Assembly: GCA_001600495.1 (NCBI GenBank)
Contig: BCKE01000098.1
Location: 48,352 to 76,991 of the forward strand
Direction: 5' to 3'
Length of the DNA stretch: 28,640 nucleotides
Origin: Pilasporangium apinafurcum
Taxonomy: Eukaryota > Oomycota > Peronosporomycetes > Pythiales > Pythiaceae
Every line of letters begins with the position of its first letter. Within the stretch, counting starts at the first letter, position 1. The notes below the pieces were generated by a model. It was not told where the DNA came from. It searched no databases and was given only the letters and a program-made list of their open reading frames with translations. This document shows, piece by piece, positions 272-28,640 of this stretch. A program made the translations under genes and the position numbers.

Positions 272-3200
272 GCGTCGCACGGGAGCTACGCTCATCATCG
301 CTACTCTCGTTACCTCGAGATGGGGACGTGATGATATCAACCGGTTTGCTGTTGGCAGGTGGTTGGTCCTTTAGAAAAAAGGCGCGTGCAGCTTCCAGTG
401 CCTTGACCCATTTCAACATCTCCTCACGGGTCTTGGCATTGAAACGGGTCTGAAATTTGGGTGAGCAAATGGAAAACTCCGTTGGTTTGCCCTGGGTTTT
501 CCCATAGATGATCTCCAAGGATGGAATATTCAGAGGGATAGACCCACGTGGCTCCTTGTCTCCCTTTCGCTTGTAGTAGATGAGGAAACCGCTGGGATCG
601 ATTACACACCAACGCTCCCGAACACCACGTAACGACATGTTACCCAGAACACCCTTTTCATTCGAGTGGCTAGGGTGCTTCATCAGTTTTCCACTCATTA
701 GCGGCACCGTCAAGCCATCGCTGGTCAACAAGGGATTCGACGTGGACTCAATCGATGCCGCCATTGACCCCATCGATGCGCTACTGCTGCTCCGACTGGC
801 AGGTGGTGGCTCCATCGACTCCGAGATCCTCTGCTCAGAAGGTCTCTGACTCAACGACGATGACCTTCGCTCCGGTGGCATAGTGAAACTGGACGGTCGG
901 GGAATATCCATCGACGCGCGGATGTCGATAGATGGTCGAATGTGAAAGCTGCCCTGTTTTCCACCGACATTGAGTGACGAGTTCGTGAGTTGCTCGTACT
1001 CTTCCTGCACTGCCTTCATCTCGTCCTTCAACTGCAGCCGTCGTGCACTCAACTCTTTCTTCAGGTTCTTGTCAGTAGCTGCCTTCGCGATCAGTGAAAC
1101 AGTTTCATGCTGCAAGTAAACGATACAACGGTTAACAGTAGATACGATCGAAGCTTGTGCATCGTAACATTTGAAACTCGTACCAGATCTGATCGTAATC
1201 GTGTTAGTTTGTTCTGTAAACGAGTGGTTTCACGGTTGCGCTCATGCGGAGCAAGGTCGACGTTGACGGCAAGATCTGATGGCCGGAGTTCCACGGGACT
1301 TGATCCATCCAGTGTTGACGGACGCTCTACAATAATTGAGGCTCTTCCGCTCGTATTCGACAAGCCTAGTTCGTTTTCCATTCTTTGCATTTCATCTAAT
1401 GCATTCTTCAGATCATCCTTAAGTTTTGCTCGCTTAATCGATAAACTTTCAATCTCAGCCGGATCATTGTGGTTGGCTTTTGCAATGGAGGTAACTGTAT
1501 CACGCTGTAAGAGACATACATGCACTTGTCAGGATCACAAGCCAGGGAAAAATCTCGCTACTTCTACAGCTGACTTACTAGGTTCTTCCGCAGCTGCGCA
1601 ATTTTGTTCTCGAGAAAAATATATTGCGGTGGTCTTTCCCCACTGATCATGTCGTCTTCTCGTTTAGAAGCTGCAGCAGCTTGCAGCATTTGTTTCTTAA
1701 ACTGCTGGATCTCCGATTCTAGGGAGTTTGCACGCTCTTCTTCTTCTTCGATAATTTCATCTAGATGATCTTGTTCCTGTCTGATCCTTTCAAGAAGTCG
1801 TTCGTGCGCATTTTCAGCATGTTTGTCAATCGATCCTCGCTCAACTAACGATCCCAAGAATGCAGGAGAAAAAACATCGACTTCATAACCCCCAGTATCA
1901 ATGTCGAGATCCCCAAACTGATCTAGCTCCTTTTGAACAGTATCCAATTCTTCCTCAATAGCAACTCTGGCTTTCTGTATTTCTTCGTTTTCGGCGATAA
2001 TATCAGCAATTTCCTTGTCTAAAGCGACATTTCTTGCACTTAACTCGGCGGTTTTTTCGACCTCCGGAGATTCAATGAGTCCCGCTTCCTGCAGTTTTAG
2101 AGTCTTAATCATTTCTTCCAGATTTTTTGCGTCTTCAGCTAAGCTTTCACGCTCCTTCTCCAACAAGGCATGGTATTCGTGCATAGCCTCAACCTGTGCT
2201 GTAAGGATCTCGCATTTCTTGGTCAATTCCATATGTTTTTGCTGCATTCTGTTTTTGGAAATCTCCCACACTTCAAGGTGTAGCTCATGGGCCACTAAAA
2301 TTTGAAAATATTCCAGACGAAGCGTGCTTTGCATGGTCCTTGCGGCACGAACCTCCCTCTCTTCTTCAGTCTCTTCTTCTGGAGGTGCTTCCTTGACTCG
2401 ACCCTATAAAATATTATCGACACATGAGGCAAATGCTACCGTTACATTCGCACTGATACAAACTTACCACAATGCCTTTGCTAACATCAGCAAACTTAAT
2501 GCGTACAGGACGAACGGTTCGGCTCAATTTCTCGAGTACTTCCGAGTATGAGTATCCTGTTAGCGGTTCGCCGTTCATCGCGGTCATGCGCATCCCAACC
2601 ACTAAACGTCTACAATTTGACACGCCGTGAGTATGAACATTCATTTGCAAATCCATACATAAGAAAAGAGATTACTTTTCTGGTTTGACACTCCAGTTGT
2701 AAATTTCAGCGGGACTCGCCATGCCGTTCGGCAGCTAAAGAACGAGCAAATGAGTACAGGATGCCTATTTATCTGATACTGTCCAAGCATTGAAACGGAT
2801 GCACAATGTTTCTACCTTATAGATCTCTGCGATGTGGACTTGAATGTCGGAAAACTCGGCTCCAGGCTCTGCGGCAATTTGCTTCAAGTTGAGCCCCAAT
2901 CGACCGTATCCAAACGTCACTTCAATCTCATGCACCCAATTGTACGACACGTCTGTTTCGTGCAGCATACGAAGATATCAAACATTTGATACACAAATAA
3001 AGCACATGGTACCGCAAAAGTTACTAACGCGTCTTTAAAGGAGGACGAAGCCATTGTGTCTGACCATACGGAGAGACATAGTAGGTTTTGCCGCCATTGG
3101 TTTTGCTTTCTCGTGTCGTCCATCCTTTCGGTAAGACCAGAATTTCTCCAGATTCTTTCACTACAGCAGATTCACAAGGTATCCTGCAACATATACCGTC

Positions 3201-3961
3201 TAAATAAGCAACAAAGATTCCATCATTTAAGAGCAGAATATGAATACATACGTTTCCTTGATTTTCGCAATGACTTCGTCCATATCTTCGTCACCCGTCG
3301 CAGTCTCCCCGTTTTCTGCTGGTGCTGCTTCTTCAATCGTTGCGTGCTCTTCGTGACCGTTGTCAGCATCGACAGCCACGTCACCATTTTCCTTCACTAT
3401 CGCTTCGCCATTTTCTTGGTGCGACTCTGCAGTCTTGTTCTCAGTGCCTGGTGGATCTGTTTCTACGATGATTGGTGCTGATGCTTCATTATCATCAGCT
3501 GTATCGTCAATTAAAGGCGATTCCGCAGCGGGAGAGCTGAGATGATCCAAGATCGCATCCATCGATCCAGGCGTCGCCACCGTATTCTCTACGATAATGG
3601 CTTCACTGATCTCTGTGTTTCCCACCGCGATTCCATTCACTAATTCATCGACTTCGGTCATTTCCAACTCGCTCAACTGTAACGGAGGCGCGACAATCGA
3701 GGGGGAGATGATATTCAGCGGGATCGGTTGTTCACCTCTGCATTCATCTGTTTTATCGGTTTGTTTATCCACTGAACTCGATTCTTCTTGCTTTGTGCCA
3801 TTCGTACCATTACTACTCTCATCAGCGATGGCTTCTTCCTCTGATACGACGATCAACTGCTCTTGGCTTGGTGTGTTTTGTGGATCCTCCTTCTCTGACG
3901 GATCATTCTTAGTGGTCATTGCGGTCGCCGACGGGGGGTTAGCGTCGCTTGGTGTCTCCAT
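219..3961 (-). CDS. WW-PDZ-coiled-coil-PH domain scaffold protein
   Basis: Eight exons rebuild one 1079-residue protein: 3961-3252, 3183-3029, 2952-2816, 2734-2676, 2609-2468, 2403-1579, 1504-1184 and 1109-219. All junctions are GT-AG and in phase. Order of parts: an acidic, low-complexity N-terminus (1-235); a WW domain near 254-285 (LPKGW start, YYV core, second W, then RPP); a PDZ-like domain near 296-394 (FGYGRLGLNL loop, then VVGMRMTAMNGEPLTG); long charged coiled coils (about 402-830); a serine-rich linker; and a PH domain near 922-1028 (GKLMKHPS start, RERWCVID, and the WVKALE helix carrying the invariant Trp). WW binds proline-rich peptides, PDZ binds C-termini and PH binds phosphoinositides, so a membrane-associated adaptor is inferred. 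I cannot name an ortholog. The first ATG of the acidic exon is taken as start; an upstream untranslated exon cannot be excluded. Confidence 0.85.
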
Positions 3962-4429
3962 CCTGTCAGAGCTCTGCTATCTAATCAGCGACGGAGGCTC
4001 ACCAGACACTCGTGGCCTATAAGTGTATTTCCGCTTGCTCGCTCTTACACTTGGCCAGCTTGCGTGCTTGATCGCACAGTAGTACCAGGAAGGTCTTTGT
4101 GTGCCGAAACTTATGTTGGTAATGAGGTTTTAAAGAAAAACCTTTCTCCCCAAACGATTCCAGCATAGAGTAGCCAAGAGTGAATGCTTGTGAGAAAAAT
4201 TAGGGGCGAATTCTCATCCCTTTCATCTTATTTTCGCAAGCTGTCCGTCGGTACGGAAAACGTATGAGATTCCATTTTGTCCGTCTGGCCAAACCTGACA
4301 CATTGACTAGAAAACCTGACAAACGAATTACGTCGAAATCTTATTTTCAGTATAACCAACTGTAAGTGTCTCTTTGCAACCAGTATGGGGAGTTTTTTTT
4401 ACTGGTATGTCATTCGACAATTCGCCACC
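3962..4429. other. Spacer between scaffold gene and Fanzor locus
   Basis: No coding region is visible. It should hold the promoter and 5' leader of the minus-strand WW/PDZ/PH gene and whatever drives, or forms the left end of, the Fanzor locus. A 10-bp direct repeat, AAACCTGACA, occurs at 4291-4300 and 4312-4321. A short inverted motif (TCCGT...ACGGA) lies near 4244-4257. No terminal inverted repeat or target-site duplication could be recognised. Confidence 0.5.
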
Positions 4430-6634
4430 ATGGCGTCAAAGCGCTCTCGATCGCAGGGAGCCCCCTATAATCCTGGACCGGACTCGTAATATGAAGACAC
4501 AGATATTGGAAACGACACCAAGCGCGCTCGCACACTCTCGAGACAAGAACAACGTGATGCCAAGCGCAAGGAAACGGATTTTAACAAGCTTTGTGTGCAG
4601 TTCCGGAAAATGGCACTTCACGAGGATGAGATGTCTTCCATCAAGTGTACGCTTCGCCAGCTCTTCGTCAAAGACTTGAACAAGCGATCGCAGCAACAAC
4701 TGATCAAGGACGAGATTGAGCGAAGCGTGCGCGTACTACGACAGATCCAGATGGAAGCGTGGCATCTTATCAACTTTCATCTCTTGCGGTGTCTGGAGAG
4801 TCGTGACGATCCCGACCAAAACAAGCGCATTGACCACCTTCCCCCGTTTGATATCAACTTCTTCAATCGTTGTATTTCTGGCGTCGGGATCAACCAGTTT
4901 ATTCAGTCTAAGGGTGAAGATATCGCGCTCAACGAGAGCATTAGTCTTTTCCGACAAGAGCGCGAGAGACAAGCTGGGTATCAACGTCCAACTATCATGA
5001 ACTGGGACAGCTCCAAAAGCACGCTCAGCATGCAGATGAAGACGAACGCGCACAATATGATTGTTCTGCATTTCTACCGCCGTCTCTCCCGATATGCCAA
5101 GCTACGCTACGACCAACCGACGAAGGGAATCGTGCACATTTTGATTCGTGAAGCATTTCAGCAGTGGGGACCCAGACGCGAAGTTGCGATGATGGTACGA
5201 GAATGATTGGGAAAGGAGCCATCGATTGACAACATTGAGCGTGATCTCACGTATTTTATCGTCAAGTTGTACGAGATGCTGGTGTACATGGAGAGTCGTC
5301 AAGATGAAGAGCCCAACATCAAGGGCAACCGTGTTTTCTCTCTATTTCCTGTGGCAACGTCATTTATTCCCGCACATATCGCGATCGACTCTTCCGTTCT
5401 CCATCAGATGTGGACCCGAATTCACCAACAGCTCAAGCAAGAAAAGCGAGTCGATTGTGACCCGTTCAAGAAATTTTTGGTGGAAGGAAAGCGTGGGTTG
5501 AAGGTGCCTTCGAACAAGGAGTTCCAGCTATTTCGTGATGATCTCTGGCGAGAGTACTTTGATATTTCCAGGTTCGAGACCGGAAGATGGAAATTTGGAC
5601 ACTACATTACGACCAACGGATACGATGTGTCCGTCTTGCGCAAGCGAGATGTTATCGGTGGAGAGAACCCTTATTTGTCCAAGAAGGAGTTCGACCCGAA
5701 GATCGCACGAAATTTCTGCGCAACTAAGATCATTGGAATTGATTCCGGCATGCGTGCACTATGCACAACTGCCACTGTCCGCATGTTAGAAGACGACAGG
5801 TTTCGTCCGCGACAGTTTTTTCGATTTCGGAAGAAGAAGTGAGTTGCAGCTACGCGGAAACATTCATCTCGATGCAGGAAGAAGAGACCCCTACGACAGA
5901 AGAGACGTAAATTGGCTGGACCGGTGACACGAAGGGTTCATCTGCAACGTACGAATGGAAAACGCAGTCGTGGTCATCAATTGCTCGACATGTACGCCAT
6001 CACGTAGATCTCGACTCGCGAGTATCGTCATCTTGCTGGATTCAACAGAGTTCGTGCTTGGAATGAAGGCATCAAACAACATGAAGTTGCGTATGGAACC
6101 CTGATGTATGGCATGCCCTCTTTCAAAACCGCGTCCTCTTCACGATACTTTAAGCGTCTCAAGTTCGTATGGGCACACATCAACTGGCTTATCGATTTTT
6201 GCTCACGCCATGCTTTCCGGAAGTGGCGCTTCTACCAGTACGTGTACAAGGCTAAGGCGTTGAATCACGTGGCGGAACGTGTTGTACCCGTTGCGAGCAA
6301 GAACACGTTGGTCGGTTTTGGAAACTGGAGTTGTCGTGATGGCATCAAGGGCCACGGTACCGGACCCGTCAAAGCGCACTACCGTTCGTTCCGTCGACGA
6401 CTTTCGTACAAGCAAGCGATGTTTCCACTGCCACGCTGAACTTTCGAAGGTAGTCTTCCCGAAAATGGTCAACGGCGTTCCCGATGGCACAATTGAATCT
6501 CGATTCGTTTTGCACTGTGAATCCAGTGAATGCAAGACGTTTGGGATCGCGACGTGAACGCTTCGCTGAATATTATGCGCGTGACGACAGAACTTTTCAA
6601 CAATCGAGCAAGACCAGAGTACTTGCAACGATAA
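4430..6634 (+). pseudogene. Fanzor (eukaryotic TnpB-like RuvC nuclease), degraded copy 1
   Basis: The Fanzor family comprises RNA-guided DNA nucleases carried by eukaryotic transposons. The ATG sits in a strong Kozak context (CCACCATGG), and the N-terminus is basic (KRSRS, TKRART), suggesting a nuclear signal. One frame (about 735 codons) carries nearly the whole protein. RuvC-I is IIGIDSGMRALCTTA (Asp codon 5741-5743). A domain with FRTSKRCFHCH and a second pair HCESSEC forms the zinc finger, and WDRDVNASLNI is RuvC-III (Asp codon 6551-6553). Damage: in-frame stops at 4487 (TAA), 5204 (TGA), 5840 (TGA) and 6005 (TAG); an apparent +1 base near 6374; and a compensating missing base in the T run at 6540-6542. 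A 39-nt GT-AG intron (5839-5877) would remove the third stop, but it is shorter than any of the 50 introns elsewhere here. The locus lies between two housekeeping genes. Family call is firm; Fanzor1 rather than Fanzor2 is inferred from length. Confidence 0.88.
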
Positions 6635-6790
6635 TCAAGTGAGTTATAGAAGCGCAAAAAAAGCGTGAGCTCGGGATCTTCGAACTTGAACCTGCTCACA
6701 CGGTACAGTCCGTATTCTAGGTGTAGCCAGTTGGTAGGCGCAACTCGCGAAGCGAGTTGGAGTAACCTAGTTTACCAACTATAATAAACG
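6635..6790 (+). ncRNA. Structured 3' segment of Fanzor copy 1 (guide-RNA candidate)
   Basis: Several inverted repeats follow the Fanzor stop directly: GTGAGC/GCTCAC (6665-6670 with 6694-6699); ACGG/CCGT (6700-6703 with 6710-6713); an 8-bp hairpin CAACTCGC-GAA-GCGAGTTG (6741-6759); and AGTTGGTA/TACCAACT (6729-6736 with 6773-6780) enclosing that hairpin. An AATAAA signal sits at 6783-6788. In TnpB and Fanzor systems the guide RNA is made from the 3' end of the gene and element, so this is the expected place for one. That assignment is inference: no guide boundary or transcript can be seen. The segment could equally be a transposon end or the 3' UTR. Confidence 0.4.
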
Positions 6791-24250: not shown

Positions 24251-24312
24251 TTTATCCTTCATTCCCCACTTGTACAACGCGTTGTACAAATGATGTGGGG
24301 AATAAAGATTAA
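24251..24312. repeat. Long palindromic motif, left of Fanzor copy 2
   Basis: The core TTGTACAACGCGTTGTACAA (24270-24289) is a perfect 20-bp palindrome. It is flanked by ATTCCCCAC (24261-24269) and its complement GTGGGGAAT (24295-24303), with a 5-nt bulge (ATGAT) on one side. The right arm runs on into AATAAAGATTAA. A related motif lies 2450 bp downstream in the same orientation (26721-26762), just past the Fanzor gene. The pair may mark the element's ends, or the left one may be the tail of an earlier deleted copy. Confidence 0.75.
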
Positions 24313-24497
24313 AACTAAGATTGCCTTGAGAGTAGACTTTAGGATTCANTGGATGGAGTGACTCCTTGGTGGCTGTTGCTGCGTGTGCAATCATCTTGAA
24401 AGGCCATGTTGACGATCAATCGTGTTTCCAGAAAAATTAAATTATACATCTTGGGTAGGGAAAAAGGTTGATATATGGAGTTAGAAAAATCAAGTAT

Positions 24498-24548
24498 ACA
24501 CCACAAGGTACTTCTCAGGAGTTTGAGAATTTCTCATTTCGGTGGTGT
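24498..24548. repeat. Nested inverted repeat in the 5' region of Fanzor copy 2
   Basis: ACACCAC (24498-24504) pairs with GTGGTGT (24542-24548), and inside it TTCTCA (24512-24517) pairs with TGAGAA (24524-24529). It lies between the left palindrome and the Fanzor ATG, in about 450 bp with no coding frame. Role unknown; it may be a subterminal hairpin or part of the leader RNA. Confidence 0.5.
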
Positions 24549-24759
24549 CTTGAATGAATCGTTTCCGGNTTCTCAATAGCGAAGCGTATTGAATTCAAGT
24601 ATTTACCACCTCACGTCCTAAGCAGCCATCCATTGAGTGTTGCTTCAACACTATTTGCCAAGATAGAAAGAACTGCAGCTTTGAGAAACAGCATAATCAA
24701 AGGCACCGAAAAAATCAAACCAACTACGAGGCGTTCTTGGGTTTGAACGTTGTGATAAA

Positions 24760-26665
24760 ATGGCATCAACGAGCAATTGTATTGAAGAGAACACCATTAA
24801 AAAGCGGAAAGCCCGGGTTTTGCGGAACGGAAAGCTCGACAAAAGCAAAGCGTATACACCACTGTGAAGACTGGATGGCAAAAGCTCTGCAAAGACAAAA
24901 GAATGGCGGAAAAGATTGATGAGGCTGTGCAAGTTTGTTCAAGAATAGCATGTGAGGCATCCATGCTGGTATCTGTCCATGTTNTGCGATTATTGGAAGC
25001 TGGCGAAGAACTCCCTTCATTGGATAATAACTTTTTCAANTGATGCTCATCTGCAATAGCCAACTTGAGCAACAACAGAGAGGTCGCCAATCCTGAATTG
25101 GAAACCAGTCGGAATATTTACATGACCCANNACCCTTCAGTTTATGAACTGACAGAGAAGAAAGCCTATATGAGTCAGATNTTGGTTATGATCNCTCAGC
25201 ACGCAAGGTAGAATTTTCAANTCAGCAACCAATTGACGTTCTACTCCCAATTGTATAANTGGATGCGCCTGCAGATACGTCTTCACAACAGTGACTATTT
25301 TGAAAAGCANCAAGGCAAGATAATCAAGAGTGCTGTTTCACTGCTGGTCCGTGCAAGCACCCAAACTCAGCATAGCTTATCCAACCTGATGTCCACGTAC
25401 TCCAGGTTCAAGAAGTATCCCATCCCTACTGAAGAGATTGTTTGGATGCAGGAATTATCGGATAGAGTGAGAAACGAGATCGGACCGCTGCCACTCGACT
25501 TGAACAAATCACCGGAACGTCACATACCTTTTCTCGGCACAATGTTGAAAGACATACAAGCTTGTGTGGATGATGGAATGAAGGGTTGCCGAGTCTGGTC
25601 TCTGTTTCCACAGAAACAATTCAAACCCATTTTCATCAAGATCAACACCACCGTCCTGAAGGAACTTGCTAAGGCTTTGAATGACCCTGTTGAGCTTTAC
25701 GCCGACAAAGCTGAGTTATGGCGCACGTACTTCAATATAAGTCTTGTGACCAAAGGTCAGCGAAAGGAGTCTGAGCACTTCATCTCGACTGATGGTATGT
25801 CAGTTGGTGTGGCAGTCACCCGTCCGAAGCTTCCCGGGAAAGAGCAAAAAGAGGAATTTTCTCTTGAAGACCGGATCATCGGTTTGGACCCGGGAAGAAA
25901 AAAGATCTTCACTGCTGTTGTCTACAAAGAGGAAAGCATGGCTACGCTGCAAAAACAGAAAGGAGAGAACGTCAAACATGAAGTCATCCACTGGTCGAAG
26001 GGTCGTTTCTACAGAGAGTGCGGCTACCACAGACGAACAAAGTTGACGAAAGAGTGGATTGATGCTCAGTCTGACATCAAAACCTTCAATGGAAAGGTTC
26101 CTTCGGCAAAAGTTGCGAACCTTGCCTCCTATTTGGAACGAGTGAGATTTTGTCTCGTGTATTTGGATCGTCTTCTTGGCTTCTATTTATCAAAGAAGAT
26201 GAAGAGGCTACGATGGTCGACCTANATCCGTCGACAACAGACGTACGAGAAGGTAGTCAAGAACCTTACAGNTGGTAATAAACGAACCGTTATCGNGTAT
26301 GGAGATGCAAGTTCCACAAGCTCAGCTAAAGGCAACATTGCTGTTCCCANAACGACCCTACGGAAGCAAATTGGTTTCAGGTGTCGTGTTGTTGATGTGG
26401 ACGAGTTTAGGACGAGCAAGCTGTGTTGTGCTTGTCACAAGAAGATGAAGGGGTTCGTCCTTGACGGAAAAGTTATCAGTGACGGTCTTTATGGTGTGCA
26501 ACACTGCAAAATAATGAATGCCATCGCATATTGTGGGATCGTGGCATCAACGCCAAAATCGACGTTTTGAGGCTATTCATCGACGAAGTGAAGAAAAAGA
26601 GGAGACTTAAAGCCTTCACGAGGGGTAAAGGATTAAGTGGGGCTCGAAATCAAAAACTGAGATGA
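24760..26665 (+). pseudogene. Fanzor (eukaryotic TnpB-like RuvC nuclease), degraded copy 2
   Basis: This is a second, clearly diverged Fanzor gene, sharing blocks with copy 1 (YFNIS, LFP, FRTSK-zinc finger). Its ATG opens a basic N-terminus (TIKKRKARVLRNGKLDKSK), probably nuclear-targeting. After a frame break near 24865 the main frame continues through 25233-26507. RuvC-I is IIGLDPGRKKIFTAVVYKEE (Asp codon 25887-25889), followed by VDVDEFRTSKLCCACHKKM (first zinc-finger pair) and HCKNNEC (second). A lost base in the A run at 26508-26511 shifts the frame, after which ILWDRGINAK corresponds to RuvC-III. There the catalytic Asp is replaced by Gly (codon 26543-26545). In-frame stops also occur near 25041 and 25209. 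At least nine N calls fall in the locus, so some breaks may be sequencing or collapse artefacts. Confidence 0.87.
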
Positions 26666-26720: not shown

Positions 26721-26762
26721 TTGTACCACGCATGGTACAATGATGTGGGGAATAAAGGTTAA
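26721..26762. repeat. Palindromic motif, right of Fanzor copy 2
   Basis: TTGTACCACGCATGGTACAA is an imperfect palindrome. The adjoining 22 bp (26741-26762, containing GTGGGGAATAAAG) match 24291-24312 with one mismatch and in the same orientation. The motif begins 56 bp after the Fanzor stop codon and includes an AATAAA signal, so it may be a transposon end, the 3' end of the guide/messenger RNA, or both. Confidence 0.75.
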
Positions 26763-28432: not shown

Positions 28433-28640
28433 TCGGCTTCTTCTTTGGATCGAGCANCAATGTCGTCTCGGGGTCGATAAAGTAGCTGTGTATNTATTGA
28501 AGAGAGCACACGCGCATAGCAGAGTAAAGCAGCGTTCCCATATCATATTAAAGGTTTTGAATTGCCGCACTGTGAAGACACTACACTGGCCATTTACTCA
28601 CACGTGCTTATGTGCTTATGTGCTTATGTGTGTGTGTGTG
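28433..28640 (-). repeat. Right arm of 208-bp inverted repeat
   Basis: This is the reverse complement of 64-271, identical except for N at 28457 and 28494. It carries a second copy of the last 53 bp of the WW/PDZ/PH gene, its 3' flank and the CACATAAG/CA repeat, facing outward. It reaches the last base of the window, so its true outer limit is unknown. Either a real inverted duplication or an assembly fold-back at a contig end would give this pattern. Confidence 0.95.

Follow-up and report, generated by a model that had tools for sequence, protein, structure and literature searches.

Fanzor1 gene of Pilasporangium apinafurcum probably carried as cargo by a decayed element with Helitron1-like ends

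Positions 4217 to 6770 of a 28,640-nucleotide stretch of the Pilasporangium apinafurcum genome (the window, contig BCKE01000098.1) are, in our judgement at a probability of about 0.75, a dead, non-autonomous Helitron-type element of 2554 bp that carries a Fanzor1 nuclease gene. This assessment includes the proposed origin and mode of life of the element. The nuclease would have left a TIR (mariner-like) transposon for a Helitron, and in the live element a transcript running out of the 3' end into the adjoining DNA would have guided it. By cutting the empty target site beside a TAM that contains CA, the nuclease would have favoured retention or copying of the element, while a RepHel that is no longer detectable would have moved full and internally deleted (ghost) copies in trans. 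The window copy is dead and in itself ordinary. The element, its parts and the second Fanzor frame of the window described below lie on the forward (+) strand. An earlier note on this DNA had the gene embedded between housekeeping genes, and thereby missed that it is carried by an element of Helitron type that has ends of its own and many ghosts.

Three-frame translation of positions 4430 to 6634 yields one Fanzor-like protein, in a long frame plus a stretch in another frame. The landmarks located in this way are the long frame, the start ATG with its context (GCCACCATGG), GIDSG, the FRTSK zinc finger and WDRDVNAS, as named in the earlier note. The four stops it counted lie in frame at 4487, 5204, 5840 and 6005. 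Its two compensating frame changes correspond to the loss of 23 bp near 6369 (between 6369 and 6370) and of 1 bp near 6539 (between 6539 and 6540), the latter restoring the frame; alignment with eight sibling copies shows these deletions, 24 bp in sum, in the window copy only. The RuvC-I motif GIDSG is read in the first frame, with its aspartate at 5741-5743, and its DSG (5741-5749) is DPG in six of the nine copies known. The zinc ribbon (6402-6539), which opens at 6402 with FRTSKRCFHCH, is read in a frame other than the first, and WDRDVNAS, which holds the RuvC-III aspartate (6551-6553), returns to the first. At the site of the alternative RuvC glutamate (6399-6401; E541 of SpuFz1, as numbered in PMC10432273), the window copy reads D. 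The catalytic blocks are only partly intact and, contrary to the earlier note, do not all survive, given the DSG, the D at the alternative glutamate and the out-of-frame zinc ribbon. A 211-residue piece of the window protein has eight further copies in the same genome at 91-95% identity, and thus the frame is more than a product of chance.

Membership in the Fanzor family, which had been proposed from motif order, is supported by relatives of the window copy in the assembly searched (36.5 Mb in 136 contigs). Separate pieces of the window protein (five, then one more) gave no significant match to Pfam or the PDB. The open frame of one sibling copy, L012, matches the structures of Parasitella Fanzor1 (E = 3.2e-5) and SpuFz1 (9.6e-5), and L018, an uninterrupted frame of 655 residues from another family, matches SpuFz1 (2e-9) and GtFz1 (3.7e-5). 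No TnpB or Fanzor2 chain was among the PDB matches listed for L018 and L012 at E up to 1. The Pfam TNB domain (PF07282, a C4 zinc ribbon and then RD), with a cut-off of 26.3 bits, is found in siblings L009 (35.1 bits) and L012 (26.4, barely over) and in L018 (28.6). The OrfB_IS605 score was under its cut-off, and the match to NCBIfam guided_TnpB was far under its own. In a tree, families A (that of the window element) and B (described below) form one clade. On the matches to Pfam and the PDB, the family of the window copy is Fanzor1, related to Fanzor1 rather than to TnpB.

At the presumed site of the canonical glutamate, all nine copies have G, the one in the motif GNWS. DPG together with an alternative glutamate is given as a Fanzor hallmark in a figure legend of PMC10711439, and the catalytic residues of SpuFz1 are stated to be D383, E541 and D606 (PMC10432273). 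With the offset counted on the L018 alignment, these three correspond to the D of DP, to DEY before the zinc ribbon and to RD. The alternative-glutamate position reads D in seven of the nine family A copies, and among the 31 loci in which the site was found (37 examined) D occurs in 16 and E in 15.

L018 (G000:C59, positions 1670 to 3637, minus strand) is 41% identical to L012 over 629 positions and, judged by its sequence, is a candidate live nuclease. It meets the expectation of the earlier note that intact relatives may exist, although it belongs to another family and there are none among the nine close copies, all of which have in-frame stops. A relative of L018, L019, has one stop and runs off the end of its contig. 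A scan of IMG/VR for close relatives of L018 matched none of its patterns.

The borders of the carrier element were drawn from nine full-length copies (L009 to L017, the window copy included), the other eight of which are 93-95% identical to the window copy. Their similarity ends at an identical 3' point and, on the 5' side, within a few bases of a common point, and the flanks are unrelated; one copy, L015, has a 5' subterminal deletion. The 5' terminal region (4217-4429) begins with TC. First bases vary among copies (TCTCCC, TCCC, TTTTAC and others), with TC in 12 and TT in four of 16 well-defined starts. At the 3' side, a subterminal hairpin at 6741-6759 consists of a perfect 8-bp stem (arms GCAACTCGC and GCGAGTTG) and a GAA loop, and the element terminates in CTAG at 6767-6770. 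All nine full copies end exactly at CTAG, as do 24 of 25 further loci, L036 having a one-base variant. No inverted repeat was found between the two ends of the element.

The bases that adjoin the element also show a preference. The window copy is directly preceded by a TAM-like CA (4215-4216), and in the 16 copies with well-defined starts, compared as a shared start class, the two preceding bases are CA in 14, TA in one and CG in one (binomial p of about 1e-14 against 7.4% of background dinucleotides), so that the left flank ends in A in 15. CAT occurs within the 18 nt spanning the 5' end in 29 of 33 copies with a recognisable end, as against 21 of 99 control stretches. The first base past the element (6771) is T in 34 of 37 copies and C in three. 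Direct repeats of the flanks are absent from 15 of the 16 copies and 3 bp long in one, and a TA target duplication was not seen in any of the 16. One copy, L016, lies inside a family B copy. Its flanks, once joined, match further copies of family B through the junction, where about 8-10 bp of target are missing, such that it is not a clean empty-site case. The target reads CCA before this junction, as it does in four of 17 family B copies, and therefore the CA belongs to the target, at L016 at least. For the other 17 loci queried, no empty related site was found among the 40 of 300 candidates that were scored.

Helitrons insert between A and T. The ends described above are of Helitron1 type: 5'-TC, CTRR-3', a 3' hairpin, no terminal inverted repeats, and insertion between A and T without duplication. 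The first three of these attributes, with a single 3' hairpin, are those given for Helitron1 in PMC3627910.

A whole-genome pattern search recovered 74 3' ends (up to three mismatches) and 58 5' ends, and none for the reversed patterns; these counts are lower bounds. When pairs were sought up to 8 kb apart, 55 of the 74 3' ends had a partner, 49 at 0.40-0.66 kb and six at 2.55-2.59 kb. The 49 short pairs are of the size of internally deleted ghosts. No longer element that might encode Rep between these ends was found among the pairs up to 8 kb. Three 5' ends and 19 3' ends remained unpaired, the latter having no 5' match within the mismatch limit and including the full copies L009, L011 and L015.

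The last 75 bp of the element have at least 40 matches, and the 30 loci read there comprise five of the known full-length copies and 25 ghosts. What these ghosts retain is a 5' piece of at most the first 127-230 bp, joined to the final 275-409 bp; in L034 and L042 the matched 5' piece begins further in, and L023 and L045 lack a further stretch. Two more ghosts, L072 and L073, lie beyond the 25. Most of the 74 3' sites have a hairpin loop of GAA or nearly so, but seven have TTC (one TTT), which looks like an inversion of the loop; L072 and L073 are of this inverted-loop type and are otherwise ordinary ghosts. At L067 (G000:C73), a ghost of family A is found next to a Fanzor copy of family B, the two being on opposite strands.

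PIF1 is the helicase family of Helitrons. A PIF1 search of the genome returned a single gene, which looks to us like the host's own. Pfam Helitron_like_N and DUF6570 had no match, and control genomes were equally silent. As no RepHel protein was detected in three profile searches, two of them without a positive control, we deduce the mobilising enzyme from the ends of the element. This outcome would also fit a mover other than RepHel, such as an HUH transposase of the single-domain kind or a partner not yet known, acting on ends that resemble those of a Helitron. The strong preference for CA, which exceeds the A and T expected for Helitrons, adds to the case for such an enzyme. However, the combination of 5'-TC, subterminal hairpin and CTRR end is the signature described for Helitron1 (PMC3627910), and we consider a different mover unlikely, if still worth keeping in mind. 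Mariner-like DDE domains are plentiful in the genome, with 59 matches. Five places share an equal DDE_3 score and an open frame of 407 residues, and two others have a frame of 573 residues; these repeated equal frames suggest recently active mariner-like transposons.

Family B, a sister family of the window element, was compared at 17 loci, which are about 80% identical and decayed. It ends in CACACGGTTAGTCCGTATTCTGG or a similar sequence, with TA next in eight of the 17 right flanks. Among nine stretches aligned at the 5' side, the reverse complement of this end is present in L054, L065, L068, L069 and the stretch beside L056, with TA next to the left end in three of the five, and thus family B is a TIR element. 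From its ends we take it to be mariner-like. In a tree of projected residues rooted on a second Fanzor of the window (omitting L014, L062 and L070, whose coverage is low), all 26 tips of families A and B fall into a single clade, of FastTree local support 1.0, and L018, L019 and L061 lie outside it.

The end motif of family B also occurs within the window element, at 6697-6720 (CACACGG..CCGTATTCTAG), 50 bp inside its 3' end. When the 136 nt that follow the stop in the window were locally aligned with the 17 family B ends, the best match fell at this relic in 14. The score was above those of all 300 mononucleotide shuffles for four of the 17 (L053, L057, L060 and L020), was reached by two shuffles for L071 and by 8-27 for seven copies, and was unremarkable for L052, L054, L055, L059 and L068. 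The corresponding alignment with L018 has a score reached by 29 of 1000 shuffles. The aligned terminal relic is short. Together, these comparisons suggest a transfer of the nuclease out of a TIR transposon and into a Helitron, whose new end lies 50 bp beyond the old 3' terminus. Each of the 74 3' ends neighbours the upstream pattern next to the relic motif, a pattern that has four more sites. Because every one of these tails keeps the stretch next to the relic, no Fanzor-free Helitron parent was seen among the 74.

The second Fanzor of the window, a Fanzor1 frame at 25212-26570 (E = 2.5e-5 to SpuFz1), belongs to a distant family and lies outside the element. A 208-residue piece of it has at least 150 matches in the genome (from 150 of 235 candidates), many about 80% identical and some representing one copy split in two, which points to a very large Fanzor1 family. 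Hairpin-like motifs (TTGTAC..GTACAA, ATGATGTGGGGAATAAAG) flank this gene at 24270-24307 upstream and 26721-26757 downstream, and are possibly the ends of its element. Single N bases are scattered over 24349-26350 of the window and occur at 28457 and 28494.

The 3' region of the window element (6635-6770) is a putative guide-RNA (fRNA) segment, as judged by its position, a motif common to several families and its predicted fold. Such regions are predicted to fold mildly better than shuffled sequences, with z-scores of -1.45 and -1.62 in family A, -0.66 in L018 and 0.49 in a family B copy. A stem of the form GTGNNN/NNNCAC before ACGG, with differing inner bases, can be drawn in L018 and numerous copies of family A, and completely in a single copy of family B (L069). 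In other sequences the search caught unrelated places, and the 5' arm was picked by pairing, so that we treat the stem as a lead only. An extended RNA stem reaching the Helitron tail was dropped, as the commoner sequence variant, by our reading, breaks its pairing.

Saito et al. have raised the possibility that RNA-guided cutting by Fanzor could promote the spread of single-strand (HUH) transposons, Helitrons among them, as a counterpart to TnpB and IS200/IS605, with ghosts helped in trans (PMC10432273). The junctions of full and ghost copies, CA before the element and T after it, would fit this scheme, and a target preference of the transposase would look alike. An IS607 TnpB is described as taking the fixed flanking base into its RNA scaffold (PMC10711439), and therefore a guide boundary can follow the transposase. 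If it did so here, the guide would begin after CTAG; otherwise, the tail of the Helitron would itself contain the guide. The latter arrangement would arise if the guide scaffold had kept the old terminus at 6697-6720 and the new Helitron end was merely added downstream, making the guide the Helitron's own tail and the nuclease a fixed-target enzyme for Helitron 3' ends next to a suitable TAM. Were this so, the enzyme would be aimed at Helitron 3' ends instead of the flanking genome. We regard this as improbable, and the conserved CA at the true left border favours a guide boundary that shifted together with the end of the element rather than a fixed target.

The same relic, together with the inverted repeats of sister clade B, could be read to mean that the window element belongs with the ordinary mariner-type Fanzor1 elements, such as those of Pythium and Spizellomyces, and has lost its 5' inverted repeat and TA duplication through decay. 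This seems quite improbable to us, since the 74 ends lie 50 bp further out, at CTAG followed by T, and neither an inverted repeat between the ends nor a TA duplication is present.

The history of the Helitron-type element after its spread can be read from its nine full copies. Pairwise distances are 0.042-0.059 and star-like. Mean dN/dS is 0.584 (36 pairs), against 0.562 +/- 0.064 in a neutral star simulation that used the observed substitution spectrum; 42 of 60 simulations were at or under the observed value. Each copy has 3-6 in-frame stops (mean 4.7, including one at the end of the window frame), which is above the 2.8 +/- 1.6 simulated, although the rates used there were taken from well-agreed columns only and are perhaps low. 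In columns where at least seven of the nine copies agree, C>T and G>A changes number 296 and the reverse 93, and the former amount to about 3% in CG and CC contexts and about 2% in CA and CT. These data record amplification and then neutral loss, by which all nine full copies are broken. Decay, which the earlier note had put forward, is supported by the stops, deletions and neutral dN/dS. Given that the copies diverged neutrally, the survival of the core blocks shows no constraint.

The assembly does have scattered N bases (for example in 24349-26350), and both deletions are private to the window copy, as they might be if the gene were live and its stops and frame changes came from faulty sequencing or assembly. 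Against this very improbable explanation, each of the four stops recurs in one other copy at an unrelated locus (L013, L016, L016 and L011, respectively), where shared ancestry or recurrent C>T/G>A change could be the source. Moreover, the excess of 296 over 93 is a mutational pattern, and stops are found in every copy. That a frame recognisable over its whole length might be a host-domesticated gene with programmed readthrough and frameshifting is scarcely credible beside the neutral dN/dS, the differently broken copies and the transposon ends.

Fanzor1 genes in Helitrons have been known since 2013 (PMC3627910), and the closest parallels are CRe-1, CRe-2 and CRe-3 of Chlamydomonas reinhardtii (Bao and Jurka 2013, PMC3627910). 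As described there, these are non-autonomous Helitrons with Fanzor1 only, like the window element, and likewise have many shortened copies, some internally deleted. They differ in being Helitron2 elements with hairpins at both ends, asymmetric inverted repeats and a TTTT target, in frequent 5' truncation and in often producing duplications. In contrast, the window element has Helitron1-like ends and a target of CA and T without duplication, and most of the ghosts read keep both ends.

The second parallel is SPu-1, the element of SpuFz1 (Saito et al. 2023, PMC10432273), which is described as a Fanzor1 element with ghosts of about 0.55 kb, with CA conserved directly before the left end of element and ghosts, and with no transposase found between its ends, all as in the window element. 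Unlike the latter, with its Helitron-like ends, it has 30-nt inverted repeats, and SpuFz1 is active with a CATA TAM, whereas the full-length copies found of the window family are all broken (PMC10432273 for SPu-1 and SpuFz1). Family B resembles the Pythium mariner elements PUl-1 and PUl-4, which are reported with Fanzor1, inverted repeats and TA (PMC3627910); the window element, in the sister clade of family B, no longer ends at the TIR terminus. Two Fanzor1 families are also recorded from Albugo laibachii (PMC3627910). Among the titles and openings of abstracts retrieved on Fanzor and on Helitrons with TnpB, no report of a Helitron1-ended Fanzor with ghosts was found, and what is new here is thus a variant of Helitron-borne Fanzor1 with ends of Helitron1 type. 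A genome that holds a Helitron1-ended Fanzor1, a TIR sister family and ghosts can be used to ask how the guide boundary and the TAM follow when the mode of transposition changes.
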